This document shows, in pieces, positions 12,987 to 41,193 of a stretch of DNA of 64,000 nt. The notes under the pieces are model-generated. The model worked only from the letters and a program-made list of their open reading frames with translations, was not told the origin of the DNA and did not search any database. The position numbers and the translations under genes are program-made. The first letter of the stretch is position 1; each line of letters opens with the position of its first letter. The DNA comes from Elusimicrobiota bacterium (GTDB lineage Bacteria; Elusimicrobiota; Elusimicrobia; UBA1565). The stretch spans positions 62,001 through 126,000 of the forward strand of contig JACPXC010000001.1 in NCBI GenBank assembly GCA_016196755.1. The letters are read 5' to 3'.

Positions 12987-12996
12987 GGGGAGTCCC

Positions 12997-19156: not shown

Positions 19157-19170
19157 GAAGCGGAGGAAGC

Positions 19171-21774: not shown

Positions 21775-21822
21775 CGGGCGCGCTAGGCCGGTAGTCCCAC
21801 AATAATGTGGGCCCGCCGGCCC

Positions 21823-21852
21823 TTGCCGCTCCTGGGCCCCTTGGACTATACT
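21823..21852 (+). promoter_or_regulatory. Promoter-like TTGCCG-N18-TATACT, 5 nt before ATG
   Basis: TATACT 21847-21852, ATG 21858. Confidence 0.5.
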
Positions 21853-21857
21853 TTCGC

Positions 21858-24800
21858 ATGCGCCGGGATTTCTTCCTCGCATTCGTCCTCCTCGTCGGTC
21901 TTTCTTGGCCCGCCGGCGCCGTGCCGCCTGGGGCGACCATGCAGGTCGTGGCGGTCCCCCGAGGCGTCGACCCGGCGGTTTGGGCCGACGTGCGCTCCCG
22001 CTATCCCTGGCTGGCCGACGCGGACCGCATACTGCTGGCCAAGGTCCTCTCCAAAGTCAAGCGCGACACGCCCGAGAAAGAGGCCTCGGTCCAGGCCTGG
22101 CTGAGGGCCGACCCGCGGGCTCGGGCCGCCCAGGTGGCCGCCGCGGCGCGGACGGACCTCGGCGCGTCCGCCGGCCGGCTCACCGCCTGGGCTTCGGCCG
22201 TCCCCTCCGCGAGCGGAGCGGCGCCGGCGGACCCCGCTCAGGCCGCAGGGACGAACCGCCCCGGCGAGGTGCCCGCCACGGGCCCGGGCGGCGTCGTAGG
22301 GACCGATTCCGGGCCGGTCGGAGAGGTCTCGCGGGCCGTAACGCGCCGCGAGCAGCTCGACGACGTGGCCAAGCGCATCGTCGAGTTCGCCTGGAAGGAA
22401 CCGGCGGAGGGCAAGAGCTTCATCAAGCCCGAGACCCGGGGCCGGGCCGACCAGCGGCCGGCTTTCGAGCGCGTGGCCGCCGAGGTCGTAGGCCGCGACG
22501 ACCGCCGCGCGGCGGCGCTGCACCTCTATTACGTCCTGGGACCCAGCCGGCCGGCCCCGGCCTGGGTGCTCGGCGACGAGCGCCTCAAGAGCCTGCTCGT
22601 CACCGACCGCGCGCTGTTTGCCGGCTTCGAGAGCCGGCTGGCCGGCTGCCTCGACCGCTGGCGCCATGACGCCGCAGGCGGGGCTGCGCGCACCTGCGAG
22701 GGGCAGGCGGACCGCGGCCAGACGCGGACCCCTTATCAAGGAGACCCGGCCTGGGTCGGCGACTTCGTGCTCGACGCCGGCGCGGAGGCCGCGCGGCTCT
22801 TGAGCGCGCTCGGCCGCAACCCGATCGAGCTCGCCGGCCCGGACGGTACGCCCGGCGCGGGTCCCGCGCCCGGCGGCGGGCCCCGCCCGCCCTTGAGCCG
22901 CCGCGCTTCAGCCGAGTTCACCACCGACCAGCTCTTCGGGAAGTGGGGCGACCGCAACGTGTTCTCGCTCGACGGCCGGATCCTGGCCCTGACCGTGCGC
23001 ACCCGCCAGACCGTATCGGGCGAGCCGCCGCGCGCCGTTATCTCCCACCAGCTCGGCCTCTACGACATCTCCAACGACAACGACATCTATGGGAAGCGCA
23101 TGGACATCGACAAGCTGGGCGACCAGAGCTTCTCCCTCATCCCGGGCGGCAAGACCTACAACATCAGCCTCACGGCCCAGGGCGGCGATGTCGCGTTCTC
23201 GATCACGCGTCCCGACGGGACCAAGCCCGAGATGTCGAGCGGGCGCCCCATGCCCACGGTCAACGAGCTCTTCCAGGACCGCGCCCAGAGGGCGCTGGCC
23301 AGCGGCAACAGGGTAATGATCGGCGGGAAGGCTTACCGCGTCACCGGCGAGTCGGCCACCACCGGGAACCTGATCTTCTGGGACGAGGCCCAACTCGAGG
23401 CCTCGCGCCGCGCGATCAACGGCGGCTTCGCGGGACAGGCCGCGCGCTACTGGGTGCCTTCGATGATGGCTCCGGTCAACGAGATGCGCGACGGCCGGGC
23501 CCAGAACCTCTCCGAGAGCGTCCCGCTCAACTTCCAGGCCGGCAACGGCAAGTGGCAGGGCCTGCGCTGGGACGGCGTCACATGGGTCCCCGCCGAGGGT
23601 GAAGAGTTCAAGCCCCGTCCGGCGCAGCGGCCGGCCGACGGCGCGCCGACCGCGGGCGGGCCTACGGGCCCCGGGGTCGCTCCCGACGGCGGCCCGACGA
23701 CCCCGCCGGCCGGCGGCGGCCGCACCGACGCGGACGGCTGGCCGCTTCTCGACCGTCTCTCGGCCGCAGCACCCCGCGCCGCGCGGCTCAACTCCCAGCT
23801 CTCGGCGCGGGCCAAGGAGCGCGTGCGCTTCTACGCCCTGCCCGACGACGTCGTCTCCGACGGGCCCGGCCAGCGCGTATTGGTCCTGCTCGACAAGGCC
23901 GCGCCGGATCGCGGCAAGCTGTTCGCCCCTCCCTACGTGGGGATCGCGTACCCGACCCGTACCCCGCCCTCCCAGGGCTCGGAGACCGAGGCCGTCGTCA
24001 ACGGAAAGATATTCCTCGCCCGGACCGACCGCGGGGCGGGCTTCGTGGACCTCGAGGCCGTGGTCGCCGAGCGCGGCGCGATCTCGAAGGGCCTGCTCGG
24101 CTACTACGTGAAAGACGGCGGGGCCAAGACGGTCGACAAGGTCACCGACATCGCGATCCTGCCCACCATTCTCGGCGCGGCGGGCTACGGCGCCGAGGCC
24201 GACCGGGCGGCCGCGAACATGCGGTCGATCCTCGAGGCCGAGGCGCCGGTCCGGAACTGGTCCTTGGGAGGGACCGAGTTCCGGGGTGCTGACTCCTTCC
24301 TGCGCGCGGGCGTGGTGGGCGCCAACGGCGAGCGCTTCTGGTGCGTCTACCCGGAGAAGAAGCTCTGCAATCAGGGGGGCACGGAGGCGCCAGGCACCGT
24401 CCCTGCCGCGGGCGCGGGCTTTCCGCTGGACCCGGCCGCGACGACCATCGCCCCCGACGAGACCTTCCAGGCCTCCGTCGAGGTGAACGGGAAGCCGGCG
24501 GCGCGCGTGGCGCCCCAGCCCGCCGACGCGGCGCTCTACCTTTCGGTGGACGGGGAGAAGCGCTCCTGGTATCTGATGACGATGCTCACCAATAACGCCG
24601 GCCAGAAGCGCAAGATCCAGCCCACTTTGGTCTTCTCGAACCGGACCGAGCCCAACGGCGCGCGGCGGCTCGACCTGCCGCAGGGCCTGACGCTGCATGC
24701 GGTCCGCGTGAAGGGCGAGCTCCCCGACCAGATGCCGCTGCGCATGGGTCCGCTGCAGGGCGACGTCGCCGCGGCGGGTTACATCTCGGCGCATCGCGGC

Positions 24801-24902
24801 GGGGCCTGCGTCGGCGTGGTGGCGGTCTGGGGCGGGACGTGGCAGGCCGCCTGCGGCAAGTGCGGCGCCTCCTGGGAAGGCGGCCGCTGCGTCGGCAATT
24901 GA
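21858..24902 (+). CDS. Large secreted protein of unknown function (~1014 aa) with C-terminal Cys cluster
   Basis: Signal peptide MRRDFFLAFVLLVGLSWPAGAV; C-terminus ACVGVVAVWGGTWQAACGKCGASWEGGRCVGN. Confidence 0.65.
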   Translation: MRRDFFLAFVLLVGLSWPAGAVPPGATMQVVAVPRGVDPAVWADVRSRYPWLADADRILLAKVLSKVKRDTPEKEASVQAWLRADPRARAAQVAAAARTDLGASAGRLTAWASAVPSASGAAPADPAQAAGTNRPGEVPATGPGGVVGTDSGPVGEVSRAVTRREQLDDVAKRIVEFAWKEPAEGKSFIKPETRGRADQRPAFERVAAEVVGRDDRRAAALHLYYVLGPSRPAPAWVLGDERLKSLLVTDRALFAGFESRLAGCLDRWRHDAAGGAARTCEGQADRGQTRTPYQGDPAWVGDFVLDAGAEAARLLSALGRNPIELAGPDGTPGAGPAPGGGPRPPLSRRASAEFTTDQLFGKWGDRNVFSLDGRILALTVRTRQTVSGEPPRAVISHQLGLYDISNDNDIYGKRMDIDKLGDQSFSLIPGGKTYNISLTAQGGDVAFSITRPDGTKPEMSSGRPMPTVNELFQDRAQRALASGNRVMIGGKAYRVTGESATTGNLIFWDEAQLEASRRAINGGFAGQAARYWVPSMMAPVNEMRDGRAQNLSESVPLNFQAGNGKWQGLRWDGVTWVPAEGEEFKPRPAQRPADGAPTAGGPTGPGVAPDGGPTTPPAGGGRTDADGWPLLDRLSAAAPRAARLNSQLSARAKERVRFYALPDDVVSDGPGQRVLVLLDKAAPDRGKLFAPPYVGIAYPTRTPPSQGSETEAVVNGKIFLARTDRGAGFVDLEAVVAERGAISKGLLGYYVKDGGAKTVDKVTDIAILPTILGAAGYGAEADRAAANMRSILEAEAPVRNWSLGGTEFRGADSFLRAGVVGANGERFWCVYPEKKLCNQGGTEAPGTVPAAGAGFPLDPAATTIAPDETFQASVEVNGKPAARVAPQPADAALYLSVDGEKRSWYLMTMLTNNAGQKRKIQPTLVFSNRTEPNGARRLDLPQGLTLHAVRVKGELPDQMPLRMGPLQGDVAAAGYISAHRGGACVGVVAVWGGTWQAACGKCGASWEGGRCVGN

Positions 24903-25045: not shown

Positions 25046-26314
25046 ATGAACCCCAAGACCATACTCGTCGCGGCGCTGGCCCTGATTCCGGCGGCCCAGA
25101 GCCCGGCTGGAGCGGCCGAGGCCGCGCGCAGCCGCAGCGTCAAGGAGGGTTCCGCCGCGGCGTTGGCCGGAGCGGCCGGCATGGTCGGCTCCCTGTCGGG
25201 GGGCGCGGCGCTGAGCGGCGGGGTCGGCGGGGCGGTGGCCGCCATCGGCGCGGCAGCGGCGCGCGCCAGCCTGATCACCCCCGAGGAGGTCGAACGTTCC
25301 ATAGAGAGAGGGCAGACCTACCTGCTCGCCAACCAGCGCGCCGACGGCAGCTGGACCGTGGGCACCGGGGCCACCTCCGCCAACACCGAGTACGTCCGCG
25401 CGGCCATCACGGCCTACGTGCTCTCGGCCTTGCGCGGCTCGAGCGCCGAAGGGGTCCAGGGGGCCATCGGCCGGGGCGAGGCCTACATCGACCAGTTCGG
25501 GGGCACCTCCACCACCACGACCAGGGAGGGTTTCGGCGGGAACACCCAGCGCCTTTACGCCCTGACCCTGGGACTCGCCAACTCGGTCTCGCGCACGCCG
25601 TCCGAGGAGAACGACATGCGCGTCAACGCCTACATCGTGGAGATATCCTCCCTGGTACGGACGACGGGCTCCACCGGCTATTATGGCGGGACCCGCCCGT
25701 CCACCTTCCAGCTCGCCATGCTGGCCGAGGCCCTGCGCGAGGCCCGCGAGGCGGGCTTCCACGTCTCGCGCCGGCTGCTTGGTACCATCCACCGCGACAT
25801 CGAGTCGGCGCGCAGCCCCGACCACGGCGGGTTCGGCTACTACACCGGAGGGCATACGGAGCGGGCCGAGGGGACGGCCTCGCGCAGCATCGCCAACGAG
25901 GTGGCCCTGGCGCGCGCCGGCCGCTCCACGCCGGCCCGGCTCACCGCGGCGCTCCAGCGGCTCATGCGGGCCCAAGGCTTGATCGGCGAGGTCGCCGCCA
26001 GCACCACCAACTTCTACTCCGGCGGGACCACCCCGCACGACCCCGCCCGCCAGAACATCGCGGCTTACTATCAGCTCTTCGGGCTCTATTGGGGGAGCGA
26101 GGCCCTGGCGGGCCTGCAGCCCGCGGAGGGTGCCGGGTACGGGCACTCCCTGGGCCGCCTCCTCATCAGCATCCAGCGGGCCGACGGCTCCTGGCGCGAC
26201 AGCCAGGTCTACGCGGGCCCGGCCTACGGCACGGCGATGGGCATCCTGTCGTTGCGCAACTGCGCCCAGGCGATCCGGCGCGGCGAGCGCGCTCGGCGCG
26301 ACTCGGCGCGTTAG
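25046..26314 (+). CDS. Secreted alpha/alpha-toroid protein (squalene-cyclase/prenyltransferase repeat-like)
   Basis: Signal peptide MNPKTILVAALALIPAAQSPAGAA; repeated NQRADGSWTVG ... IQRADGSWRDSQ...YGTAMGILSLRNC QW-like repeats. Confidence 0.65.
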   Translation: MNPKTILVAALALIPAAQSPAGAAEAARSRSVKEGSAAALAGAAGMVGSLSGGAALSGGVGGAVAAIGAAAARASLITPEEVERSIERGQTYLLANQRADGSWTVGTGATSANTEYVRAAITAYVLSALRGSSAEGVQGAIGRGEAYIDQFGGTSTTTTREGFGGNTQRLYALTLGLANSVSRTPSEENDMRVNAYIVEISSLVRTTGSTGYYGGTRPSTFQLAMLAEALREAREAGFHVSRRLLGTIHRDIESARSPDHGGFGYYTGGHTERAEGTASRSIANEVALARAGRSTPARLTAALQRLMRAQGLIGEVAASTTNFYSGGTTPHDPARQNIAAYYQLFGLYWGSEALAGLQPAEGAGYGHSLGRLLISIQRADGSWRDSQVYAGPAYGTAMGILSLRNCAQAIRRGERARRDSAR

Positions 26315-26428: not shown

Positions 26429-29400
26429 ATGCGCCGACCCCTAGCCGCCACGCTGGCTGCCGTGCTCGCCGTCCTGGACCCGGCTTTGCACATCGGTCCC
26501 TATGCCGGCCGCCTTTTCGCCGAGGAGCCGACCCCGGCGTCCGCGGCCCCCGATCCCACCCGGCCGTCGATAGACGTCAACGAGGCCGTCGGTTTCCTCG
26601 AGACGAACAACGTGTTCCGGGGGCCCGACGACCCTCTGCGGACTTACGTGGTCGACGCCCGGACCGGCCAACTCTCGCCGATCGGCGAGGTCATCTACCT
26701 CTATCTCCGCAGCGAGACCCCCGACCGCATACGAGAAGTGGCCCCGGCCTTCGAGCAACTGCGCCAGTCCGGGCCGGCCACGCCGCGCATGCTCGACGCC
26801 GCCGGTCAGTCCCAGCAGGACCTGCAGACCCGCTTCGCCGACTTGCTCCAGGTCTTTAACGGCGGCTCTCCCGGGGGGGGCGGCGGCGGCCCGGGCAGCA
26901 GCCCGTTCGCCCAGAACGCCCTGCTCAGCGTTTCCTTCGACGGGGCCGCGCGGGCGCGCGGCGAGCCTGAGTACACCCAGATCGAGACCGACGATTCCTA
27001 CGTGTTCATGGACCGCGAAGGGGTGGCGGTGCGGATGGCCAAGAACTGGGCCTGCCGCCACCAGAGCTGGGATCCCAGCGCCGAGCCGTACCTCATGAAC
27101 CGCCAGCAGTTCACCACCTTCCAGACCGAGAAGGAGGCCTCCGGCGAATGGGAGCAGTGGGCCTGCGGCGAGCAGGGCGGCGTCACGATCTTCAGCCGCG
27201 ACATCCAGAAGTCCCAGAAGGCGATGAACGCCTCGGCGACCAAGCCTTCCTGCGCCCCGCGGGTGCCCGAGACCGGCCGCTACAACGTCGAGATGCTCGA
27301 GTACAGCGCCTGCCTGCTCTCCAAGGACGTGGAGCGCTCGCGCTACGGCTACAAGGTCGACCTCCTGGTCAAGCTGGCCACCATGTTGGGCGAGCATCCC
27401 AGCGAGGAGATGATCCTGCGCCAGACCGACCGCCTGCTGGCCGAGTACGAGGCCAAGGCCAAGAACACCAACATCAACCTCGACGACCAGCATTGCGGCC
27501 GCAAGGTGACCACGGCTTGGGACGCGGCCACCTGCAAGCTCAAGGAACGCGACGACTACGTCAAGAAGTCCGAGGAGTTCCTGATCGCCTATCAGCAGCG
27601 CATCAACGCCTACAAGACCCGAGAGGTCATCACCCAGGCCGAGATCCAGGGCCTGCAGGCCGACGAGGCGCTGGTCAAGAAGTTCCTGACCCTGGCCTAC
27701 CTCGAGGCCCAGCGCGGGCAGGCCTATACCCAGCTCGAGGGGATTAGCTGGGAGTCCTTCAAGAACGAGTCGGGGCAATGGATAACGCGCGCCGTCACCG
27801 ACTCCCCCGATTCCAAGGCCCTGCGCGAGGCGCTCGAGAAGCTCTACCCGGACCCGACGGCCAGGGCCAACTACCTGGCCCAGGGCGGCGAGATCGCGCG
27901 GCGGGTCGAGCGTCTGCTCCGGGCTTACGACCGGATCAAGGAGGAGCTGCTCCGGACCGACCACGCCGGCTCGATGGGGGTCGTCCAAGGCGCTCTATCG
28001 TCCACGCAGCGCGAGTTGGGCGAGGTCGGGCTCGACGCCCGCCTCTTCACCAGCGTCCCGATCATGACCCACCTCGGCAACGAGGAGAACTCCGGCTGGT
28101 CGCGCTCGACCTACTACGGCGTCGCGAAGGGCATCAACTGGATCAGCGGCCTGTGGGGCGGCGACGCGCTGGGAGGCTACATCCAGCAGCGCGACGACCT
28201 CGGGCGCTACGTCCCCGCTATGCATAACGTCGCCGCCCTCATCGGGAGCGGGGATTTCGCCGGGGCGCGCGAGGCGATGCTGAGCGTCGACCCCAACGCG
28301 CAGCGCACCCATTGGCAGGTCGAAGCGGGCTCCACCGGCGACGACCCCTCGCGGACCGAGCGCACGGAGACGATGTTCCGCAAGATCAACCAGACCGTCA
28401 CCAGCCTGATGTCGACCCACATGTGGGTCGACATCGGGCGCGACATCGTGGTCTCGAGCATCGTCCTGGCCGTCGCCGCCCCCGCGGCCGCGGCGGTACT
28501 CAGCGGCATCGCCAAGGCCGCCTACACGGTGGCCAACATCGCGGCTCAGGGCGGCAAGCTCGCCAAGACCGCGGCCTTCTTCGCCCGCATCGTGGGCGGG
28601 GTGGCCGAGCACGGCGCGATCCGCCTGAACTCGCTGACTCCCGCGGCCAACACCCTGCGCCAGAAGACCATGTGGGGTCGCGTCCTGGCCGCCACGGCGA
28701 TCCGCGGCATCAACGCCGGGGTCCGCCACGGCGTGTTCGCGTTGGGGATGTCGGGCGGGGTCTCCGGCGGGATCAACTGGGCCAGCCACGAGTTCAGCCC
28801 CAACTCGGGCTACACGAGCGGCGCCCACGCATTTTCGGAAGGCTACAAGTCGGGCGCTAAGTGGGGCGCCGCCAACGGCTGGGTCCTCTACTTCGGCTTG
28901 CCCTCGACGGCCTTCGAGGAGAGCTTCCTGACCAACGCGGCCAGCTCGCTGGCCAACCGAGGCGTGCTCGGCAACGGCGTCTCGCTGATCCAGCGCGGCT
29001 GGACCGCCTTGGGCGGCAAGAGCGCCGGCAACTGGGGCGACCGCTTCCTGGGCTGGATGATGAGCAAAGGCGGCACGGCCGGCACCGTCTTCGGCACCAC
29101 GGTGTCGATGGGTGACCAGTTCGCCAAGTACTACGTCTTCAACAAGGGCGTGGAGTCGATCGCCTACCACGCCTCGTACCAGTTCAACTCCGTCGACTCC
29201 GGCGACGTGGAGCGCCGCATCAAGCGCGCCCAGGCCGCCGGCATGCACGCCATGGAGATGCCCTACTGGGCCCTGATCCCGACCTTCTCGGCCAGGACCG
29301 CGCAGGCCGTCGAGCAGAGCCAGCACAGCCAGCAGGGGTTCGCCGAGTACAAGAAAGCGGGCGAGCTCGACCGCATCGCCAACGCCGCCGCCGACATCGC

Positions 29401-32400
29401 CGTGCTGCCGCTCAAGAACGCTCCCCAGCGCCCGTTCCTCACCCGGCTCTTCGAGTTCAACCTGATGGAGGCCACGGGCCAGAAGGGCGAGTTCAAGGTC
29501 ACCAAGGACATGAAGTACGACGCGATCCGCCTCGAGCTCGAGCGCTCGGTGACCAACAACGGCCGCCAGCCGGCCAACCCGTACGAGTACTACCGCATCA
29601 GCCAGATGGAGCGCGGGACGCACGACCGTCTGCACATCACCGAGGAGGTCCGCGACCAGGCCCAGGGGCTCTTCGAGACGGCGGTCCTCGAGAGCCCGGC
29701 CCTGGCGCGGCGCATCATGTCCGCCCAGCCGGGCTCGCGGCTCGACGGCTTCGGCCTGGTGCGTCTCGGCCACCAGGAGGAGGTGGCCCGGGTCCTCTTC
29801 ATCCAAAACCGCGGCGGCAAATCGGTGCCCGCCGCCGAACTGGCTCAGGCCAGGGCCATCCTCGAGCCCTACCTCAAGTCCGAGGAACACGTCACCGGCA
29901 AGGCCGCCGAGATGCTCACGGCCCTGTCGAAGAACACGAACCCCACGCCGGTCTACCAGAAGTTCGTCGACGGGATGCTCGAGCGCACCCAGACCTGGAA
30001 GGCGGAAGGGGGCACGAAGTACATGGACCTGGTCGCCGAGTTCCGCACCGGCGCGAAGAACTCGGCGATGGCGCCCCACGAGCTCAACGTCATCACGAAG
30101 ATGATGGACTTCCTCGAGGCCATCCAGACGCGCTTTACCACCTTCAACCAGGTCGGGACCGCCAGCGGCCGGGCCCAGCGCGCCCTGAGCGCGCTGTTGA
30201 CCGAGGCCAAGGGCGGGGGGGCCGCGAGTCCCTTGGTGGCCAAGACTATCGACGGGATGCTCTCGAAGCTCTCCTCCTGGCGCAACGAACATCCCAGCCT
30301 CGAGACCGCGGTGGGCAAGACCTACTACGAGATGGTCAACAAGATCAAACAGGAGGTCGAAGGCCTCAGAAAGAAGCTCAGCCCCGGCGACCATGGTCTT
30401 CTCGAGACGGCCGTCAAGGACCTGGAGGCCGCGCCTTCGCTCCTGCGCGACGCGAAGGGCGGGAGCCTGCCCGGCTGGCGCCCGGAGCAGTTCGAAGGCT
30501 TGATGCACTTCCTGCACTCGGTGGCCAAGGACGGGGCCAACACCTCGGAGGTCATCCGCACCTTCCTCCTCATGAAGACCGGCGGCGGCAAGACCCTGCT
30601 GGCTTACGAGGGCCTCCTGCCGGTGGCCGAGGCCGACTCCGGCCTGCACGGCGGCAAGAAGCTCAAGACCATCTTCCTGACCGTGCAGTCGAACCTGGAG
30701 TCCCAGGCCCGGCTCGAGTTCCGCTCGATGAAGAAGCTCCTGAGCGACCTGACGATCGACACCTGGGAGGGATTTAAGTCCAAGATCGCCCAGAACAAGC
30801 TCGAGAACAAGGGCGGGGCCGAGGACTACTGGATCCTGGGCGACGAGATGGACGGAGCGGCGCTCCAGCCCGCGCTGACCATCGGCGAGACCACGGCCGG
30901 CATCGGGCGCGAGAACTCGGGCTATCGCCTGCTCAAGAGCATCACCGAGCGCATGAAGGAGCTCCTCGACCGCGGGCCGGCCGAGGTGCGCAAGCTCATC
31001 TCCTCGGACGCCCGCCGCCAGCAGACCCTGGTCGACACGATGGCGCCGAGCGAGACCCAGGCCAAGCTCCGCGGCACCACCGAGGAGCTCGTCTCGCTCT
31101 CCGAGCGCATGACCCAACTGCAGAAGCGCGGCGACATGGCGGGCCTCGAGGGCCTGGCCAAGCGCGTCGAGAAGGTCCTCACGAACCAGCGCGAACTGCT
31201 CCGGGGGGCCGACCCGGCCGTGTCGACCGGCGTCCTCGAGGCCGGCTCGCGCATCTCCGAGACGGTGCGCAACCGCGGCGCGGTGGGCCGCTCGGACTGG
31301 AAGCAGGTCAAGGTCCGCTTCGCCGACATGCTGCGCGAGCAGGAGGCCGTCCTCGCCCAGACCGCGCCGCTAGGCGAGAAGCAGGCCGCGGCCCTGCGGC
31401 GCGTGGCCAAGGTCCAGCGCGAGGCCGGCAACGTCACCGAGGCGGCCAAGCTCGAGGCCCGCGCCAGCAAGATCATCGCCGAGACCGCCGAGGCGCGCGC
31501 CGGCATCGAGAGCAACGCCAGGGCCTTCAAGGACCTTCTGCGCGAGGGCAAGCCGGGCTGGGAGCAGGCCGCGCGCAAGCTGGTCTCCGAGCGCTCCTCC
31601 CTCGTCGAGCGCTCCGTGGTCAAGGAGAACCCGATCTACGAGGTCTTCCGCCGCATGCGCGAGGACATGTACCAGCTCGTGCACTCCAAGACCCGCGTCA
31701 CCCAGACCTCGGAACGCCTGGCCACGACCCCCGAGCGCACCGCTCAGACCCTGGAGGTTGCGGCCGACGTGTTCTCGATCCCGCGCCAGAAGCTCCTCAC
31801 CGAGGCCGCGGCGCTGCGGCAAGAGGCTCATGGCAAACCGCCGGCCGAGGCCCGGACCCTCCTCGAGCGGGCCGACAAGCTGACCGAACGGGCGAATTCG
31901 AAGGCCCCGGCCTACCAACTGGCCGAGAGCCTGCGCCGTGAGGCCGTCGGCAAGCCGCCCGCCGAGGCCCAGGCCCTCGTGCGCCGGGCGTCGGAGATCA
32001 TCACCCATGCCGACGCCCGGGCCGCCTCCCTGCGCGCCCAGGCCGCCGAGGCCCGCCAGCGGATCGGCCAGCCGCTCAACGCCGAGCAGCAGGCCGCCGT
32101 CGAGGCGCGCGCCCAGGCCCATGAGAAGCTGATGAGCGCCGAGCGGAAGGTGATCCTGATCAAGAGTGAGCTCCGGCTGGCGGGCTCAAAGCCCGCGGCC
32201 GAGCTCCACCAGGCTCTGAAGGCCGCCGAGTCCGAGGCGGCGCGCTGGCGCGCCGACTACAAGAAGGTCAACGACGTGGTCAACGCCTCCGAGGCCAGCC
32301 GCGCCCAGGCCGCCCAGTCCATCCTCACCGAGCTCAAGCTCGAGACCGCGCGAGCCGGCGAGGCCTGGGCCCAGCGCCTGCAGGGCCTCAAGGGCCTCGA

Positions 32401-34045
32401 GGCCGACGCTCTGCGCCGCGCCCTCTCCGGCCTCGAGCGCTCCTTCGAGAATCAGGCCAAGGCCCTGGAGTGGACGCCTCAGCGCGCGGTGGACGTCCTC
32501 CAGCGCCGGATCACCGGCGTCTCGGCCACCGAGTACGTCTCGCGGCTGGCCCTGCAGTACACCGGCCTGCAATGGGTGATGTCCAAGGTCCCCGGCCTCC
32601 GGTCCCTGGGCTGGTCTAAGTGGATGACGGCCCACGAGGTCGGCCTCACGCGGACCTACGCCCAGGAGCTCATGTGGGGGTTCATGTTCGACCCGTTCAT
32701 ACCCCCCCAGGTCCGCTGGAAGATGCTGTGGACGATGGGCTCCTCGCTCCTGTGGCCGCGCGGGATCACCGGCCGCGGCACGAGCTGGGTCCTGACCGAG
32801 CTCCTCAACCTCGCCACGGGCTACACCGACAACGCGGCCAACATCCGCGTCGACAACATCACCGGCAAGGTGAACGCCATCCACAACGGGCAGTGGTTCG
32901 AGTCGATGGACACCCCGACGCGGCGCTATTGGGAGCTCGAGTACAACACCGACCTGACCCTGCCCTACGAGCACAAGACCCAGGTCACCCTCAACGACTT
33001 CGTCCGCGACAACCTCAACGCCCGCTTCGTCGGCTTCTCCGGCACCGCCGGCCCGCGCTTCCGGGAGTACCTCGGCAACTACAAGGTCGAGATCGCCGGC
33101 GTGGGCTCGGCGTCGGTCAAGGATGTGCTGCTCAAGCTCCACGAGGGCCCCGGCGGGAAGCTCACCGAGATAGGCAACGCGGTGCGCGAGGCGCTGTCCC
33201 ACGACGCGGCGATGCTCGCGGCGGGAAAGCAGGCCGACGCCCTCGTGGTCCTCAGCCTCCCGGACACCCGCACGGTCAAGGCGGTCCGAAAGTACCTGCT
33301 CCGGATGAAGATCCTGACCCCGGACCAGATCTCGATGGTCTTCTCCGACGCCGAGCTCCTGCGCGTCAACCGGCCGGAGGCCAACGTCGCCCAGCAGATG
33401 AACCTCGGCGGGCTCAAGGATGGCAAGGTCAAGCTGCTTATCCTCGACACCCGGGTCGGCGGACGCGGCCTCGACCTCGACTTCAAGGGCTATCGCAACC
33501 CCCGTCCGGACCAGTTCGGCGGCTATTTCGACTTCAACATGCTGGTCATCGACCCGCAGTTCGCCAGCGAGGCCCACTTCCTGCAGGCTCAGGGCCGCAT
33601 CGACCTCGGCCGCGTGTACTCGAGCCTCGACCCGAGCCGCTCCTTCCACCCCGAGGCGGCGGTGCGCCGGTTCTCGATGGTCCTGGACCTGCAGACCGCG
33701 ATGCGCGACCCGGTGTTCATGCGGATGCTGCGCACGGAGCCGATCTTCCAGCAGCTGCGGGCCCACCCGCGGGTCGTCGAGATCGCCTTCTCCAACGGCC
33801 GCTTCACGCCGAGCTGGGCCGACATCAACGCCTTCGTCGCCGAGTCGCGCGCCAACGGGCGCGAGGGATTTGTCACCGAGCTTTACGAGGGGACCGTCCG
33901 CAAGTACCTCGCCGAGAAGCAGACCCAGATCGAGCTCGACCAGCTGCGCTCGTCGGGAGTCCTCCAGGACGCCGGGAGCTTCGACCCCTCGCTCTACGGC
34001 CTGCAGCCCGTCGTGCCGGGCACCCTCTACCCCGGCGGCTTCTGA
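26429..34045 (+). CDS. Giant (~2538 aa) envelope protein with C-terminal SecA/DEAD-like helicase-type motor
   Basis: Signal-like MRRPLAATLAAVLAVLDPALHIG..FAEE; internal hydrophobic segments; LMKTGGGKTLLAYEGLLP, WILGDEMDGAALQPALTIGE, FSGTAGPRF, LDTRVGGRGLDLDF, LQAQGRIDLGR. Confidence 0.7.
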   Translation: MRRPLAATLAAVLAVLDPALHIGPYAGRLFAEEPTPASAAPDPTRPSIDVNEAVGFLETNNVFRGPDDPLRTYVVDARTGQLSPIGEVIYLYLRSETPDRIREVAPAFEQLRQSGPATPRMLDAAGQSQQDLQTRFADLLQVFNGGSPGGGGGGPGSSPFAQNALLSVSFDGAARARGEPEYTQIETDDSYVFMDREGVAVRMAKNWACRHQSWDPSAEPYLMNRQQFTTFQTEKEASGEWEQWACGEQGGVTIFSRDIQKSQKAMNASATKPSCAPRVPETGRYNVEMLEYSACLLSKDVERSRYGYKVDLLVKLATMLGEHPSEEMILRQTDRLLAEYEAKAKNTNINLDDQHCGRKVTTAWDAATCKLKERDDYVKKSEEFLIAYQQRINAYKTREVITQAEIQGLQADEALVKKFLTLAYLEAQRGQAYTQLEGISWESFKNESGQWITRAVTDSPDSKALREALEKLYPDPTARANYLAQGGEIARRVERLLRAYDRIKEELLRTDHAGSMGVVQGALSSTQRELGEVGLDARLFTSVPIMTHLGNEENSGWSRSTYYGVAKGINWISGLWGGDALGGYIQQRDDLGRYVPAMHNVAALIGSGDFAGAREAMLSVDPNAQRTHWQVEAGSTGDDPSRTERTETMFRKINQTVTSLMSTHMWVDIGRDIVVSSIVLAVAAPAAAAVLSGIAKAAYTVANIAAQGGKLAKTAAFFARIVGGVAEHGAIRLNSLTPAANTLRQKTMWGRVLAATAIRGINAGVRHGVFALGMSGGVSGGINWASHEFSPNSGYTSGAHAFSEGYKSGAKWGAANGWVLYFGLPSTAFEESFLTNAASSLANRGVLGNGVSLIQRGWTALGGKSAGNWGDRFLGWMMSKGGTAGTVFGTTVSMGDQFAKYYVFNKGVESIAYHASYQFNSVDSGDVERRIKRAQAAGMHAMEMPYWALIPTFSARTAQAVEQSQHSQQGFAEYKKAGELDRIANAAADIAVLPLKNAPQRPFLTRLFEFNLMEATGQKGEFKVTKDMKYDAIRLELERSVTNNGRQPANPYEYYRISQMERGTHDRLHITEEVRDQAQGLFETAVLESPALARRIMSAQPGSRLDGFGLVRLGHQEEVARVLFIQNRGGKSVPAAELAQARAILEPYLKSEEHVTGKAAEMLTALSKNTNPTPVYQKFVDGMLERTQTWKAEGGTKYMDLVAEFRTGAKNSAMAPHELNVITKMMDFLEAIQTRFTTFNQVGTASGRAQRALSALLTEAKGGGAASPLVAKTIDGMLSKLSSWRNEHPSLETAVGKTYYEMVNKIKQEVEGLRKKLSPGDHGLLETAVKDLEAAPSLLRDAKGGSLPGWRPEQFEGLMHFLHSVAKDGANTSEVIRTFLLMKTGGGKTLLAYEGLLPVAEADSGLHGGKKLKTIFLTVQSNLESQARLEFRSMKKLLSDLTIDTWEGFKSKIAQNKLENKGGAEDYWILGDEMDGAALQPALTIGETTAGIGRENSGYRLLKSITERMKELLDRGPAEVRKLISSDARRQQTLVDTMAPSETQAKLRGTTEELVSLSERMTQLQKRGDMAGLEGLAKRVEKVLTNQRELLRGADPAVSTGVLEAGSRISETVRNRGAVGRSDWKQVKVRFADMLREQEAVLAQTAPLGEKQAAALRRVAKVQREAGNVTEAAKLEARASKIIAETAEARAGIESNARAFKDLLREGKPGWEQAARKLVSERSSLVERSVVKENPIYEVFRRMREDMYQLVHSKTRVTQTSERLATTPERTAQTLEVAADVFSIPRQKLLTEAAALRQEAHGKPPAEARTLLERADKLTERANSKAPAYQLAESLRREAVGKPPAEAQALVRRASEIITHADARAASLRAQAAEARQRIGQPLNAEQQAAVEARAQAHEKLMSAERKVILIKSELRLAGSKPAAELHQALKAAESEAARWRADYKKVNDVVNASEASRAQAAQSILTELKLETARAGEAWAQRLQGLKGLEADALRRALSGLERSFENQAKALEWTPQRAVDVLQRRITGVSATEYVSRLALQYTGLQWVMSKVPGLRSLGWSKWMTAHEVGLTRTYAQELMWGFMFDPFIPPQVRWKMLWTMGSSLLWPRGITGRGTSWVLTELLNLATGYTDNAANIRVDNITGKVNAIHNGQWFESMDTPTRRYWELEYNTDLTLPYEHKTQVTLNDFVRDNLNARFVGFSGTAGPRFREYLGNYKVEIAGVGSASVKDVLLKLHEGPGGKLTEIGNAVREALSHDAAMLAAGKQADALVVLSLPDTRTVKAVRKYLLRMKILTPDQISMVFSDAELLRVNRPEANVAQQMNLGGLKDGKVKLLILDTRVGGRGLDLDFKGYRNPRPDQFGGYFDFNMLVIDPQFASEAHFLQAQGRIDLGRVYSSLDPSRSFHPEAAVRRFSMVLDLQTAMRDPVFMRMLRTEPIFQQLRAHPRVVEIAFSNGRFTPSWADINAFVAESRANGREGFVTELYEGTVRKYLAEKQTQIELDQLRSSGVLQDAGSFDPSLYGLQPVVPGTLYPGGF

Positions 34046-34134: not shown

Positions 34135-35142
34135 CTAGGGGCGGGCTTCGTGGAGGCCGTCGGGCTGGTAGAGGATGATGCGGCTGCCGTCGTCCTCGAA
34201 GCGGAAGGGGATGCGCATGAGGTGCTTGAAGCGCTCCTTGATCTTCACGTGGGCCTCGGGCTTGGCGAAGAGCAGCATGAAGCCGCCGCCGCCGGCCCCG
34301 AGCAGTTTCCCGCCCAAAGCGCCCGCCGCCTTGGCCGCGTCGTAGATCTCGTCGATGGCCGGCGAGGAGATCTTCGAGCTCAGCGTGCGCTTGATGCGCC
34401 AGCTCTCGTCGAGCAGGGTCCCGAAGCTGGCCAAGTCCCCGCCGCCGGTCAGGATCGCGGTGGCCTCCCGCACCATGGCCTGCATGCGCTCGAGCTCGGA
34501 GCGGGTGTCGCCCATGCGCTCGAGCTGCTCCTTGACGATCACCGAGGCGATGCGCGAGAAGCCCGTGAAGTACAGCAGGAGGTGGCCGTGCAGGTCGTCG
34601 AGCCGGCCCTGGCTGACGGCGATCGGGACGACCTCTATCTTGCCGCTGGGCTGGAAGTCGATGCGGTTGAAGCCCCCGAAAGCCGCGCTGACCTGGTCTT
34701 GGCAGCCGACGTTCTCTCTTAGGACGTCCTGCTCGATGGTTATGGCCTCGCGCGCGAGCGCCATCTTCTCGGGCATCTGGTGCTTGAGGGTCCGCATGGC
34801 GTGCAGCAGCCCCACGACAAATGACGAGCTCGAGCCCAGGCCGGTGCGCGCGGGCAGGTCGCCGTCGTGGTGGATCTCGACGCCCTCCTCGATGGCGAGG
34901 TGCTTGAGGATCGCCCGCACCGCCGGATGCTCGATCTCCGCATTGGAGGCCACGGTCTCGACCTTCGAGTAGAGGATGCGGCTCTTGTGGCCGAAGAAGG
35001 GGGGGAGGTAGCGGCAGGTGATGTAGCAGTACTTGTTGATCGTGGTCGCCAGGACCGTGCCGCCGCGCTCGCGGTACCAGGAGGGATAGTCGGTGCCTCC
35101 GCCGAAGAAAGACATGCGGAACGGCGTCCGGGAGATGATCAT
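34135..35142 (-). CDS. GHMP-family sugar kinase (heptose-7-phosphate kinase-like)
   Basis: MIISRTPFRMSFFGGGTDYPSWYRERGGTVLATTINKY; ARTGLGSSSSFVVGLLHA; GGKLLGAGGGGFMLLFA. Confidence 0.85.
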   Translation of the reverse strand: MIISRTPFRMSFFGGGTDYPSWYRERGGTVLATTINKYCYITCRYLPPFFGHKSRILYSKVETVASNAEIEHPAVRAILKHLAIEEGVEIHHDGDLPARTGLGSSSSFVVGLLHAMRTLKHQMPEKMALAREAITIEQDVLRENVGCQDQVSAAFGGFNRIDFQPSGKIEVVPIAVSQGRLDDLHGHLLLYFTGFSRIASVIVKEQLERMGDTRSELERMQAMVREATAILTGGGDLASFGTLLDESWRIKRTLSSKISSPAIDEIYDAAKAAGALGGKLLGAGGGGFMLLFAKPEAHVKIKERFKHLMRIPFRFEDDGSRIILYQPDGLHEARP

Positions 35143-35218
35143 GAGCGTGCGTAGTATATATTAACGCCCGGTGGCGCGGCCCTGGGCGGAGTGTTATACT
35201 TGAGACGGCTCCCCCCCT

Positions 35219-36265
35219 ATGAATAATGTCAGTTTCGGCCTTAATTTATTGAAGGCCCGCCTCACCGGCAAGCGCGTGCCCTTCCAGCTCAACATGCACA
35301 TCACCGACGTGTGCAACCTGCGCTGCAAGTACTGCTACATCGACTTCGACCACGCCGTGCCGGACATGAGCCTCGAGACGATGAAGGACGTCATCTCCCA
35401 GGCCCGGGCCTGCGGCACGGAGCGCATCAGCCTGGAGGGGGGCGAGCCGCTGGTGCGCCGCGACATCGGCGAGCTCGTCGACCACATCGCCTCGGTCGGC
35501 ATCGACTGCAACATCAACACCAACGGCTATTACCTCCCGCGCAAGATAGGCGAGCTCAAGCGCGTAGGGACCATCTCGGTGAGCATGGACGGCCCGCGCG
35601 ACGTCCATGACGCCCTGCGCGGGCCGGGCAGCTACGACAAGGCCATCGCCGCCATCGAGGCCGCGCGCGGCGCGGGGATCAAGGTCCACGTCCTGAGCGT
35701 CCTGACCAAGGCCAACCGCCCCCATGTCCGCTTCATGGTCGACCTGGCCAAGACCATGGGTTTCATGTGGATCCCGACCTCGCTGTTCTTCATGGCCGGG
35801 GTCAAGATCGACCGCGAGGCGGCGGGCGCCTTCAAGATCGAGGACGAGGATTATAAGGCCCTGATGCGGGAGCTGATCCAGCTCAAGGCCGAGGGCGCCC
35901 CGATCGCCTGGTCGAACCGGACTCTCAAGTACGTCCGGGACTGGCCCACGACCTATTTCCAGAGCAATTTCTTCAATATGACCGAAGAGTACGTGATGAA
36001 GGAGTTCAAGCCGCTCCAGTGCCAGGCGTCGCGCCACTTCTGCGTGATGCAGACCAACGGCGACCTCTATTCCTGCGACCCCCTGCTCGGCTACGGGAAG
36101 GCGCAGAACGCCGTGGAGCTCGGCTTTAAGGAGGCCTTCGAGCGGACGAGCCAGAACGGCTGCATCGCCTGCAACTCGCTGGTCTGCAGCGAGTACCACT
36201 CCCTCTTCACCATGAACGTCCCGGTCATCATGAACCTGCTCACGCAGTACGCTAAGCGCGGCTGA
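35219..36265 (+). CDS. Radical SAM protein with C-terminal Cys-rich region
   Basis: CNLRCKYCYIDF CxxxCxxC motif; GGEPLVRRDI; C-terminal CQASRHFCVMQTNGDLYSCDP...GCIACNSLVC. Confidence 0.85.
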   Translation: MNNVSFGLNLLKARLTGKRVPFQLNMHITDVCNLRCKYCYIDFDHAVPDMSLETMKDVISQARACGTERISLEGGEPLVRRDIGELVDHIASVGIDCNINTNGYYLPRKIGELKRVGTISVSMDGPRDVHDALRGPGSYDKAIAAIEAARGAGIKVHVLSVLTKANRPHVRFMVDLAKTMGFMWIPTSLFFMAGVKIDREAAGAFKIEDEDYKALMRELIQLKAEGAPIAWSNRTLKYVRDWPTTYFQSNFFNMTEEYVMKEFKPLQCQASRHFCVMQTNGDLYSCDPLLGYGKAQNAVELGFKEAFERTSQNGCIACNSLVCSEYHSLFTMNVPVIMNLLTQYAKRG

Positions 36266-37218
36266 TGGCGCCCCGGGTCTTCGTCACCGGCGCCACGGGC
36301 TTCCTCGGCCGCAACCTCGTGCGCCTCCTCGACGCCGAGGGGATCGAGACGGTGGCTTTCCATCGCCCCGGCTCGGACCTGGAGGTCCTGCGCGGCCTGC
36401 GCCACCGCGCCGTGGCCGGCGAGCTGACCAGCGCCGAGGACCTTCGCCGGGGCCTTTCTGGCTGCGAGGCCGCTTTCCACTTGGCCGCCTGCACCTCCCT
36501 GCTCAAGCGCGACCGCCGGCGGCGCGCCGAGGTCAACGTGGCGGGCGTGCGGGCGCTCCTCGAAGCCTTGGCGGGGCTCAAGGTCCGGCTGGTGCATTGC
36601 AGCACCGTGGGGACCGTCGGATTCTCTGGCCGGCCGGACGTCCTCGACGAATCCAGCCCGTTCGACGCCGGAGGCATCGATTACTTCCTCTCGAAGCGCC
36701 GCGGCGAGGAGCTGGTCTTGGAAGCGGCCCGTCGGGGGCTCGACGCCGTCGTCGTCAACCCCGGGACCCTCATCGGGGCCCGAGGCATGCGCGGGGTGCA
36801 AAAGACCGCTTTCAAGAAGGCCGCCGCGGGCGGGGTCCTGGCGTACCCGCCGGGCGGCAGCTGCTTTACCCCCGTGGAGGACGCCGCCCGGGGGCTCGTG
36901 GCGGCCTGGCGCAAGGGACGCTCGGGCGAGCGCTACATCCTGGGCGGGGCGAACCTGGGCTTCCGGGAATATTTCTCAAAAGTGGCCGCTCTGGGCGGGG
37001 CGCGTGGGCCGCTCCTGCCGCTGCCGGGCGCTCTCCTGCCGACGGCGGGCTGCCTTGTCGAGTCCATGGGCGGCAGCATCGGACGCGACACAGGCAGGTT
37101 GGCCGCGGGCTTCGGCTACTACTCATCCCGAAAGGCCGAGCGTGAGCTCGAATACGCGCTGACACCGATCGACGAGGCCCTGCGCGGGATCTACGAGGCG
37201 TTGGGGGCGGGGGAATAA
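36265..37218 (+). CDS. NAD-dependent epimerase/dehydratase (extended SDR)
   Basis: VFVTGATGFLGRNLVRLLDAEG Rossmann motif; IDYFLSKRRGEELV (YxxxK-like); TGATG overlap with upstream gene. Confidence 0.85.
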   Translation: MAPRVFVTGATGFLGRNLVRLLDAEGIETVAFHRPGSDLEVLRGLRHRAVAGELTSAEDLRRGLSGCEAAFHLAACTSLLKRDRRRRAEVNVAGVRALLEALAGLKVRLVHCSTVGTVGFSGRPDVLDESSPFDAGGIDYFLSKRRGEELVLEAARRGLDAVVVNPGTLIGARGMRGVQKTAFKKAAAGGVLAYPPGGSCFTPVEDAARGLVAAWRKGRSGERYILGGANLGFREYFSKVAALGGARGPLLPLPGALLPTAGCLVESMGGSIGRDTGRLAAGFGYYSSRKAERELEYALTPIDEALRGIYEALGAGE

Positions 37219-37219
37219 C

Positions 37220-38296
37220 ATGGGCGCGGTCGACTTCGGCGCGAAGCTCCTGAGGCTCTACGCGGGGGCCGATTACGGCCAGCTCGGCCTGCGGGAGTCC
37301 GACCACAACGCGATGTACGCGGGCAAGCGCCTGCCCCTGGCGGTGACCATCTCGGCCACCCACCGCTGCAACCTGGTCTGCTCCCACTGCCAGTCCGAGA
37401 ACTCCGACACCAAGGAGGACATCTCCACCGAGCGCTTCCTCAAGCTCATCGAGGAGATCGCGGAGGCCGGCGCCACGCGGGTGGGCTTTACCGGCGGCGA
37501 GCCGCTGATGCGCAAGGACATGGGCCGGATCCTTGAGCGCTGCCGTCAGCGCGGTCTCATCGTCTCGGTGGTGTCCAACGGCTGGCTGGTCAAGCGCAAC
37601 ATCGACTGGCTGCGCGGCATCAACCTCCTGTTCCTGAGCCTCGACGGCGGCCGCGAGGTGCATGACAAGATCCGCGGGCCGGGGAACTTCGAGAAGTTCG
37701 TCGAGGCGGTCTCGGCCGCGCAGGGGGCCGGCATCCCCGTGGCGGCGCTCTCCACGCTCAGCTCGATGAACGCGGCCTGCGTCCCGGAGATGGCCGACAT
37801 CATCGTCAAGCACAAGCTGCACTGGATGGTGGGCATGATCCAGTCCGGCTTCACGAAGCGCTCGGACCAGGACGCGAGCAAGCGCCAGATGGAGGAGATG
37901 GTGCGGACCGTGGCCGCTTCGCCAAACCTCCGGACCTCGAAGCGCTATCTCGACTTCGTGCTGGGCGAGGGCGAGATGAAGCGCTGCTTTGCGGGCATCG
38001 GCTACTGCATCATCGCCCCCAACGGCAACATGTACCCCTGCTTCCCGGCCGAGTTCGACCACGCGGGCTACGCCGGCGTGGCCATGCTCGACGGCGCGGA
38101 CAAGCAGGCCGCCGACGGCTATCGCGGGATCAGCATCCTCGAGAAGCCCTTCCAGCAGGCTTTCGACGAGCTGCCGCTCTACCGGCGGACCTGCTCGACC
38201 TGCGCGCTGGCCTGCCACGTGGAGGCGAACTACCTCTACGAGTTCACGCCGGACAACATCCGCCAGAGCCTGAAGCTGATGCGCCCGGCCGCCTGA
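37220..38296 (+). CDS. Radical SAM/SPASM-like protein
   Basis: ISATHRCNLVCSHCQSENSD; FTGGEPLMRKDM; CFAGIGYCIIAPNGNMYPC; CSTCALACH. Confidence 0.85.
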   Translation: MGAVDFGAKLLRLYAGADYGQLGLRESDHNAMYAGKRLPLAVTISATHRCNLVCSHCQSENSDTKEDISTERFLKLIEEIAEAGATRVGFTGGEPLMRKDMGRILERCRQRGLIVSVVSNGWLVKRNIDWLRGINLLFLSLDGGREVHDKIRGPGNFEKFVEAVSAAQGAGIPVAALSTLSSMNAACVPEMADIIVKHKLHWMVGMIQSGFTKRSDQDASKRQMEEMVRTVAASPNLRTSKRYLDFVLGEGEMKRCFAGIGYCIIAPNGNMYPCFPAEFDHAGYAGVAMLDGADKQAADGYRGISILEKPFQQAFDELPLYRRTCSTCALACHVEANYLYEFTPDNIRQSLKLMRPAA

Positions 38297-38301
38297 CGCC
38301 C

Positions 38302-40152
38302 ATGGCGGCGGCGCCCGGGGGTCGGCTGCGCTGGTCGCTCTGGGCCGCCGGCTGCCTCGCCCTCTTCGTCCTCGGCCAGGGTTTTTTCCAAGACCGCAGT
38401 CCGGATCTCCAGCTCCTCGAGCACGCGCTGGGGCGCTCGGTCCCGGGCGACATCTACGCGGAGTCGGCGGGCTGCGGCCCGTATCTCCTGAGCACCAAGG
38501 CCGTGGCCGCGGCGCTGGGAGCCCTGGGCCTGGCCGACCTCTGGCTTTGGGCCGTGGCCGTCCTCCGGCTGGTCTTCTTCCTCGTCGGGCAGGTCGCGCT
38601 CCGGCGCCTCCTGCGGCGGCTTTGCGGCGACGACGAGGCGGCCGTCATCGGCACCTTGCTCTTCGCCGCGGGCGCCAGCCTCGTCCCGCTCGGCACGGCG
38701 GCGATCCTCAACGGGCGCCTCAACCATCTGCTCGCCGTCCCCGCCGTGCTCTGGTCGCTGGAGTCTTTCCTGGCGGGGGCGCGGACGCGGGCCTACGTCA
38801 TCGCCGGGGCGGCGGTGCTCCTCAACGCCAACCCCGCGATATATCTGCTCGCCCTCATCGTGGTCGAGGACGCCGCTCTGGCTCTGGCCGCCGGCGGGGG
38901 CAGGGAGCTGCGGGCCGCCCTCCTGCGCGCCGCGGGCATGGCCGCTTACTGTGCCGGCCTCATGAGCTGGTTCCGCTCGGCAGGCTCCGATGACCCCGGG
39001 CCTCTGGCTTTCCTGGCCAGCGTGCGCTACCAGAGTCCCCAGATAAGCCTGCTCGAGGGAGCCAACCGCGGGGACGTCGTGTTCGCGCTGGCCGGGGCCG
39101 CCTGGCTGGCGGCATTCGGAGGATTCGGCCGACTCCGCCACGGCGCCAGCCTGGCGAGGATGACGGGAGTCGTCCTGCTCGGCTGCGTCGTCAGCTCGAT
39201 CTTCGAGGCCTTCCCCGGCGAGGTCCGCTCCAGCGGACTCTGGGCGATAGCCGTCCGCGTGGATTGGCTCAAGAGTCTGTGGTACCTCAACCTGTTCGGC
39301 TTGGCGGCCGCCGCGCGCTGGCTTTGGACGTGGTGCGAGGAAGACCGTCCGTTCGTCGTCGCGGCCGCCTCGGGGGCCGGGCTGTTTCTCTCCTCTTCCT
39401 ATGACGTCCTCACACGCATGGGCGCGGCGCTTCTGACCGCCTTCGGCTCCCGTCTGCCCGCGGCGCTGCCTTGGGCCGCCCTCGGCGGCGCCGCGGCTTT
39501 CAGCGCGGTCTGGTCGGCCGCTCCCGAGCGCTTCGCCGCCCTAGCGCGGGCCGTCCTTCCTATCAGAGGAGGGCTTTTCGCCTCGTTGATGTTCACCCCG
39601 GCTTGCGCGGCCGCGGCCGCGGCGGCGGCGGCCGCCGGCTGGGCGGGCTCCCGGCCCTGGGGCAAGGCCTGGCGGCCCGAGCTGCTGGGTCTGGTGGCCG
39701 CGGCCTGCGCGCTGGCGCTGCGCGCCGGCGGCTGGGGGCCGCGGCCGCCCGCCCCGGAGTGGACGGCGGCCCTGGCTTACGCCCGGAGCACGCCGGAGGG
39801 CAGCCGGTGGTTCATCCCGCTCTCCATGGACCAGTCGGTCTTCACGGCGGAGGCGCGGCGTCCGGTCTACGCCGCCGCCACGTTCTACGACGTCATCCAC
39901 GCCTGCACGGGGCTGAGCGGAGTCCACGCCCGGCGCCTGACCGGCATGGGCGTGGACTTCGCGCGCTCGGGGAGCTACGAGGAGACCCTGGCGGAGCGCG
40001 ACCGCGCCGACCGCCAGCTTGACGCGCCGCGCCTGCTGCGGTCGGTCGACGACGTCTCCTCGGCTTTCGCTCTCCGGCCCGCCGGCGCCCCGCTGGCGGG
40101 GCTCGACGAGAGCTACCGCAACGCGGCCTTCGTCATCTACCGCGTGAAGTAG
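38302..40152 (+). CDS. Polytopic membrane protein, paralog of 5430..7439
   Basis: Many TM segments; AAVLLNANPAIYLLALIVVEDAAL parallels ATYVHANPAIYLWPLFGVDELL. Confidence 0.6.
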   Translation: MAAAPGGRLRWSLWAAGCLALFVLGQGFFQDRSPDLQLLEHALGRSVPGDIYAESAGCGPYLLSTKAVAAALGALGLADLWLWAVAVLRLVFFLVGQVALRRLLRRLCGDDEAAVIGTLLFAAGASLVPLGTAAILNGRLNHLLAVPAVLWSLESFLAGARTRAYVIAGAAVLLNANPAIYLLALIVVEDAALALAAGGGRELRAALLRAAGMAAYCAGLMSWFRSAGSDDPGPLAFLASVRYQSPQISLLEGANRGDVVFALAGAAWLAAFGGFGRLRHGASLARMTGVVLLGCVVSSIFEAFPGEVRSSGLWAIAVRVDWLKSLWYLNLFGLAAAARWLWTWCEEDRPFVVAAASGAGLFLSSSYDVLTRMGAALLTAFGSRLPAALPWAALGGAAAFSAVWSAAPERFAALARAVLPIRGGLFASLMFTPACAAAAAAAAAAGWAGSRPWGKAWRPELLGLVAAACALALRAGGWGPRPPAPEWTAALAYARSTPEGSRWFIPLSMDQSVFTAEARRPVYAAATFYDVIHACTGLSGVHARRLTGMGVDFARSGSYEETLAERDRADRQLDAPRLLRSVDDVSSAFALRPAGAPLAGLDESYRNAAFVIYRVK

Positions 40153-40293
40153 TCCAAGGTCCCGCGGGGGCCTAGGTCCTAATTCGCCCCCTCTCTTACC
40201 TAATGGTCTCATAGAGGCTCGGCGCGGTCGGGAGTATGATGGACCTGTCATGCTCTTAAGCCTGGCACCACTTCTGGTACAATGAGGCCTAAC

Positions 40294-41193
40294 ATGGGAC
40301 GCCCGACCCGAATCCAATTCCCCGGAGCCTGCTATCACGTCGTGCTCCAAGGCAACAACAACCGGGACATCTTCCTCAACACCCAGGACCGGCGGGCCTT
40401 CATCACCCTCCTCAAGGCCTACAAGGACCGCTACGACCTCAAGGTCTACGCCTACTGCCTCATGAACTCCTACGTGCACCTCCTCATCGAGACCGGTCAG
40501 GCCAACCTCTCGAAGGTCATGCAGGGCTTCAACACGGCCTACACCAAGCACTTCAACTCCGAGCACGGCTCGGTGGGCCACGTCTTCCAGGGGCGCTACA
40601 AGGCCCTCCTGGTCGACAAGCAGAACTTCCTCATGGAAGTGACGCGCTACATCCACCTGGCCCCCGTGCGCGAGGGCCTCAAGGAGCGCGCCTGGCGCTA
40701 CCAGTGGTCCTCCTGTCCCGCCTACGTCGAGGCCGAGGTCAAGGACCAGCTGGTGGACTCGGCCCCGGTCCTCAAGACCATCGCCGCCAACCGCCTCAAG
40801 CAGTCGGTGCGCTACCTCCAGTACATCAAGGAGCGAGTCAAGGACGCCGACGGCGAGCTGCCCACGGTGAAGGGCTTCTGCGTGGGCACGCCGGCCTTCG
40901 CCGCCGAGGCCCAGCGCCTGGCAGGCCTCGAGGGCCAGGGCGACGGGCCCGCCCTGCTGAGCTCGGCGGCCATCCTGGCCGAGGTCGTCGCCAAGCACGG
41001 CGTCGACCAGGAGACCCTGCTGGGCCGCAGCCAGTGGCGGGACATCTCCGCGGTGCGCAAGGAAGCGATCTACCGGATGTGGAAGGAGGCGCGCATGGGC
41101 GTCACCGCCATCAGCCGCCTCTTCAGCCGCACCCCGTCGGCGGTCAGCCAGCTCATCCGGGCCATGGAAACCAGCCGGGTCTCGCGCAATTAA
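40294..41193 (+). CDS. RAYT/Y1-type (REP-associated tyrosine transposase-like) protein with C-terminal HTH
   Basis: GACYHVVLQGNNNRDIFLNTQDRRAFITLL; YCLMNSYVHLLIET; GHVFQGRYKALLV; RYIHLAPVREGL; YQWSSCPAY. Confidence 0.85.
   Translation: MGRPTRIQFPGACYHVVLQGNNNRDIFLNTQDRRAFITLLKAYKDRYDLKVYAYCLMNSYVHLLIETGQANLSKVMQGFNTAYTKHFNSEHGSVGHVFQGRYKALLVDKQNFLMEVTRYIHLAPVREGLKERAWRYQWSSCPAYVEAEVKDQLVDSAPVLKTIAANRLKQSVRYLQYIKERVKDADGELPTVKGFCVGTPAFAAEAQRLAGLEGQGDGPALLSSAAILAEVVAKHGVDQETLLGRSQWRDISAVRKEAIYRMWKEARMGVTAISRLFSRTPSAVSQLIRAMETSRVSRN

Follow-up and report, generated by a model that had tools for sequence, protein, structure and literature searches.

SecA-type motors are known as cytoplasmic machines, and to our knowledge ATP is not expected in the periplasm or outside the cell, which counts against any such motor being exported. 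In the 64,000-nucleotide stretch of Elusimicrobiota DNA analysed here (hereafter the window), one open reading frame, 26429 to 34045 on the forward strand, encodes a giant protein of 2538 aa with a Sec signal peptide at its N-terminus and a SecA-like motor at its C-terminus. Where, then, does this motor work? If it is truly exported, it would break the rule that ties ATP motors to compartments holding ATP; alternatively, an exported intact motor would mark a protein built for work inside another cell. With its conserved gene set and sharp topology question, the family offers a compact, testable model for SecA-like domains in giant bacterial proteins.

The Motor-Bearing Protein and Its Family

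The frame is open and continuous over its full length (from 26390 or 26429 to 34045), an AAGGGA lies upstream of the ATG at 26429, and the signal peptide starts at this codon. The peptide (26429 to 26521) comprises the first 31 residues, begins with MRRPLAATLAAVLAVLDP and ends in RLFA ahead of EEP, with cleavage predicted after RLFA. The first-pass annotation had proposed such a peptide and some 1300 residues ahead of the motor; the peptide is indeed present, as it is in every ortholog whose start is present, and about 1,350 residues of helical sequence stand between it and the C-terminal SF2 ATPase core. This region opens with an N-terminal helical domain (26522 to 28348), whose AF2 model gave no match in a comparison with PDB folds, and includes a hydrophobic helix, S1 (aa 665-695, 28421 to 28513), and a weak Gly-rich hydrophobic segment, S2 (aa 760-786, 28706 to 28786). 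Lobe 1 of the motor (30473 to 30958) carries motif I (TGGGKT, aa 1384-1389, 30578-30595) and motif II (DEMD, aa 1472-1475, 30842-30853). It is followed, between motifs II and III, by an insert of about 550 aa (30959 to 32608) that is helical or coiled-coil in the AF2 secondary structure. Lobe 2 (32609 to 34042) holds motif III (SGT, aa 2204-2206, 33038-33046), motif V (DTRVGGRGLD, aa 2340-2349, 33446-33475) and motif VI (QAQGRIDLGR, aa 2386-2395, 33584-33613), and ends in a short helical C-tail. All these features lie on the forward strand, and each motor motif quoted in the first-pass annotation stands at the place implied there.

A search of related genomes for this architecture recovered the motor region in 30 of 38 genomes from this order, a count that includes the genome of the window itself, mostly as single ORFs of 1.9-3.4k aa with full-length relatives among them; several of the relatives are of groundwater origin. 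A phylum-wide sample of 200 genomes contained the family only in this order and in one further family of the class, f8. The f8 proteins (L119, L120, L121) are longer, at 5-6k aa, and have the same type of motor nearer the N-terminus; they share the long-spaced motif VI QxxGR[IV]LGNR and are likewise nearly devoid of Cys, the L121 frame containing 0 Cys in 4186 aa. Viral contigs were scanned as well and yielded no relatives of the motor protein, which gives no indication of a viral origin.

Across 26 aligned related proteins, full or partial and all from this one order, motif I is kept as T[GS]xGKT apart from a few departures, and motif II reads DExD and motif III SGT or SAT; motif V is mostly DTRVGGRGLDL, and motif VI follows QxxGR[ILVA]x3-4R in 26/26. 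Within a 1200-aa motor alignment of 21 sequences, D134, E135, D137, S866, T868, R1004, R1008, D1011, Q1048, G1051, R1052 and R1057 are invariant. The Walker A, DExD and motif VI arginine by which SF2 ATPases are recognised are all present, and the catalytic residues are intact across the orthologs. The motifs of the motor survive in orthologs with as little as 25-30% identity and so are not chance. The same conservation bears on the idea that the protein is a structural one of the cell surface, its SF2 core being a relic or a mere nucleotide-binding scaffold. Such a protein could sit in an exported location without ATP, but the catalytic residues of all motifs, both motif VI arginines included, are kept at that divergence, and we regard this explanation as very improbable.

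Identity of the Motor

When an AF2 model of aa 1339-2538 (pLDDT 77, pTM 0.56) was compared with the PDB by Foldseek, the best four matches were all SecA, namely E. coli N68 (5k9t, E=4.7e-5), T. maritima (4ys0, 6.9e-4), B. subtilis (1m6n, 2.3e-3) and M. tuberculosis (1nkt, 3.4e-3); TM-scores are low (0.14-0.26) and rmsd is high, so the match concerns the lobes and not the overall arrangement. DEAD-box (2e-2) and RecQ folds come next. Furthermore, an hhalign comparison with the lineage's own SecA brought motif I/Ia into register (P=2e-4); beyond motif I/Ia, motif V was in register without significance. Plain sequence matching of the whole motor to the PDB (phmmer/profile) returned essentially coiled-coil and helical-bundle matches from the insert. 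The SecA-like motor of the first-pass annotation is in this way borne out by both fold and catalytic residues.

Pfam gives a different emphasis. ResIII is found in 16/21 orthologs (in lobe 1, best 3.9e-6) and DEAD in 4/21, and P-loop_SecA (PF21090) appears weakly (E=0.013) in a single ortholog among the 21. In the window's own genome SecA_DEAD (PF07517) matches the housekeeping SecA alone, the motor protein not being matched over the cut-off. These assignments, together with the DEAD-box and RecQ folds that follow SecA, are what would be expected of an SF2 nucleic-acid translocase or helicase, acting for instance on extracellular DNA, rather than of a protein translocase. We consider that improbable: SecA takes the first four places among the fold matches, motif Ia (LTVQSNLEAQA) lines up with the VTVNDYLA of SecA and not with the PTRELA of helicases, and a nucleic-acid-binding domain was not found in the protein.

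As modelled, the C-terminal core is a tandem-RecA SF2 motor (motifs I, II, III, V and VI) with SecA as its nearest solved fold, and it would so act like a SecA-type motor while not being a member of the SecA family. We exclude it from that family because of its large insert, its short C-terminus, its family-specific motif VI and the separate housekeeping SecA of these genomes. The helical insert stands at the position of the SecA PPXD, and no PPXD was recognised in it. SecA continues for roughly 270 aa or more after motif VI; in the window protein about 140 aa remain, which are too few for the HSD and HWD. The housekeeping SecA was found in 37/38 genomes of the order, the exception being a 79%-complete assembly. 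Second SecA copies, possibly SecA2-like, occur as open frames of 1.1-1.6k aa in several relatives (G002:C33, G003:C25, G005:C59, G004:C33 and G006:C30).

Conserved Neighbours and Location of the Motor

Gene clustering across 24 loci revealed a recurrent co-directional order, c2 - c1 - motor - (c4) - c3, with c1 present in 14 loci, c2 in 11, c3 in 10 and c4 in 10; the suggestion that the motor has a dedicated locus thereby gains support from conserved gene order. The next conserved gene upstream of the motor, c1 (21807 to 24902, forward strand), encodes 1031 aa with a signal peptide. Its neighbour c2 (19066 to 21774, forward), which looks membrane-anchored and probably starts near 19171 in reality, is rich in Lys at its N-terminus and carries a conserved hydrophobic segment, KKDL.F..AGL....APLAEH. 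Downstream, c3 (44348 to 58117, forward) is a giant of 4589 aa with a signal peptide, a C-terminal TM followed by RRRR, and one Cys; it is preceded by a short exported relative of 605 aa from the same c3 family (41305 to 43122, forward). Neither Pfam nor, where searched, NCBIfam gave an assignment to c1, c2 or c3, all of which look exported or membrane-anchored from their sequences. A TolC/OEP-like nature of the 4589-aa giant, considered by eye, found no support in Pfam or PDB sequence searches.

Several other features of the neighbourhood deserve mention. The c4 protein (40282 to 41193, forward) combines a REP-type Y1 transposase (Y1_Tnp) with the DnaA C-terminal helix-turn-helix (DnaA_C); it lies between motor and giant in relatives too, where it is 51-84% identical, and the identity of the 12 paralogs found in other parts of the genome is only 25-37%. 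This fusion looks domesticated. Also between motor and giant, the block at 34135-40152 (a GHMP kinase, two radical SAM proteins, an epimerase and a multi-TM protein) is an insertion, because it is present in the window and absent from relatives. In this genome alone, an exported protein with weak squalene-hopene-cyclase-like similarity (25046-26314) stands between c1 and the motor. Six Cys-poor proteins of 366-530 aa without Pfam match (7402-14424 and 59852-61444) resemble the N-terminus of c2; several have an N-terminal Lys-rich IPxLKxxEKEKK followed by a TM, with more hydrophobic segments near the C-terminus. Finally, a single-TM protein at 1926-3095, whose N-terminus (GQLAIPSLFVLPSLFLFVYLLFE) is TadE/TadG-like by eye, adjoins an FtsH-like AAA protease (3582-5423).

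The first-pass annotation had noted hydrophobic segments near 28430-28800 and suggested that internal TMs return the motor to the cytoplasm. The segments exist, with aa 673-691 TM-like and aa 760-786 weak, and no strong TM was found in the window protein beyond the former. We scored them on a simplified Hessa-type scale, of which only relative values count. Against TM controls of -1.8 to 1.3 and a soluble floor of 5.2-7.3 from SecA, S1 reaches 1.3 in the window protein and 1.2-3.9 in many relatives; the values are 4-7 for L033/L034, L036/L037 (g2, same family), L038, L045 and L048-L051. S2 is weak in all sequences scored, and no second TM-grade segment ahead of the motor was found in L033/L034, L036/L037, L045 or L048-L051. 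Of the proposed return, then, the TM-grade helix stands for the window protein; the plural does not, and the one helix is lost in several orthologs, while the Cys pattern favours an exported motor.

Cysteines offer a separate line of evidence. In the N-terminal domain, Cys 209/246, 275/295 and 356/369 are gained or lost strictly as pairs (16 cases with both, 0 with a single one), as disulfides would give. VKOR is absent from the genome; DsbA-like Thioredoxin_4 proteins are present. After S1, 26 sequences contain 13 Cys in 51,594 residues, and their motor lobes 2 in 18,424; these are related, not independent, sequences, and the depletion still holds at 25-30% identity. As controls we used about 330 kb of the window's own genome and the SecA of relatives: SecA from the same genomes has 56 Cys in 10,181 residues (0.55%), and the genome's own SF2 cores have about 0.8-0.9%, a few helicase frames being uncertain. 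On the other hand, single cytoplasmic proteins can be Cys-free, as is the DEAD-box protein L124 (0/407), which weakens the argument, as does the relatedness of the counted sequences. A composition classifier that ignores Cys, of modest power (AUC 0.68), placed the lobes at 0.60 and the N-domain at 0.84, compared with 0.03-0.12 for SecA and 0.12 for the cytoplasmic part of FtsH.

These results can be read in two ways. The protein may be type-I-like and inserted in the inner membrane, with the signal peptide cleaved, the disulfide-bonded N-domain in the periplasm, S1 crossing once and a cytoplasmic motor powering the export or remodelling of the exported proteins encoded nearby. The S1 scores of 1.2-2.7, close to the TM controls (0.1-1.3), in the window protein and in most relatives from f1/f3 agree with this, as do its place within one continuous 64-residue helix (AF2) and intact catalytic motifs in a compartment that supplies ATP. 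Set against it, S1 is not TM-like in L033/L034, L036/L037, L045 and L048-L051, and the motor half is nearly Cys-free; we regard it as possible, though rather doubtful. A wholly exported motor, about as likely as not, is favoured over a membrane-returned one, because S1 is lost in several orthologs, Cys is depleted in the motor and paired in the N-domain, and the Cys-free classifier points the same way; the signal peptide of all N-terminally complete orthologs and the exported or membrane-anchored partners lend further support. Against an exported motor count the expected lack of ATP and the TM-grade S1 of the window protein and most near relatives.

Our best explanation, which may well be right and may equally be wrong, is a lineage-specific envelope protein whose entire chain would be exported by Sec through its signal peptide. 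Export of the N-domain and its folding with disulfides in the periplasm are strongly suggested. The motor would stay non-cytoplasmic, as part of a surface apparatus with the exported partners c1, c2 and probably the 4589-aa giant, in which it may translocate or remodel proteins. More speculatively, the two lobes would spend ATP on pulling or unfolding a polypeptide that is threaded past the helical insert, a SecA-like action that we infer with moderate confidence. The likeliest source of the ATP would be another cell, with the protein delivered into a contacted cell or acting on it; this we suggest only tentatively. A more specific version, in which the exported motor acts without ATP from its own cell, for example inserted in a contacted cell and translocating itself or the neighbouring giant, seems unlikely.

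Comparison with Known Systems

Like SecA, the window protein has two RecA-like SF2 lobes with a big insert separating motifs II and III at the PPXD position of SecA, and its KTGGGKT, TVQSNL, SGTA and GRGLD resemble the EMRTGEGKT, TVNDYL, TGTA and GRGTD of SecA. It differs in the lack of a SecA Pfam match over the cut-off, the roughly 550-aa insert, the approximately 140 aa after motif VI and the motif QxxGR[ILVA]x3-4R; moreover, SecA is cytoplasmic and has no signal peptide, whereas the window protein has one at its N-terminus. With SF2 ResIII/DEAD-box helicases it shares the lobe 1 match to ResIII in 16/21 orthologs, but the fold match is weaker than to SecA and the window protein's context is exported.

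For most full-length giant genes, a preprint by West-Roberts from 2023 reportedly found divergent domains of the SecA/DEAD type. Amoebophilus effectors bear "SecA-like helicase-related domains" (PMC3482391); like the window protein they have a SecA-like domain, here in proteins believed to work inside other cells, although they belong to another phylum. The giant ORFs of Omnitrophota, with multiple TMs and domains without assignment, have been linked to predation or adhesion (Seymour 2023; PMC10066038), Elusimicrobiota rank with the phyla that have the most huge proteins (PMC11573180), and giant genes in Omnitrophota, Elusimicrobia and CG03 are described in the West-Roberts 2023 preprint, as far as it is cited in PMC12057145. 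The giants of Omnitrophota and Elusimicrobiota share with the window family a very long ORF, an export signal and few known domains, whereas the window family is 2.4-3.4k aa long in its order and bears its motor at the C-terminus. Giant exported proteins are already known from Elusimicrobiota and Omnitrophota, and the window protein is a variant of that kind with a C-terminal motor.
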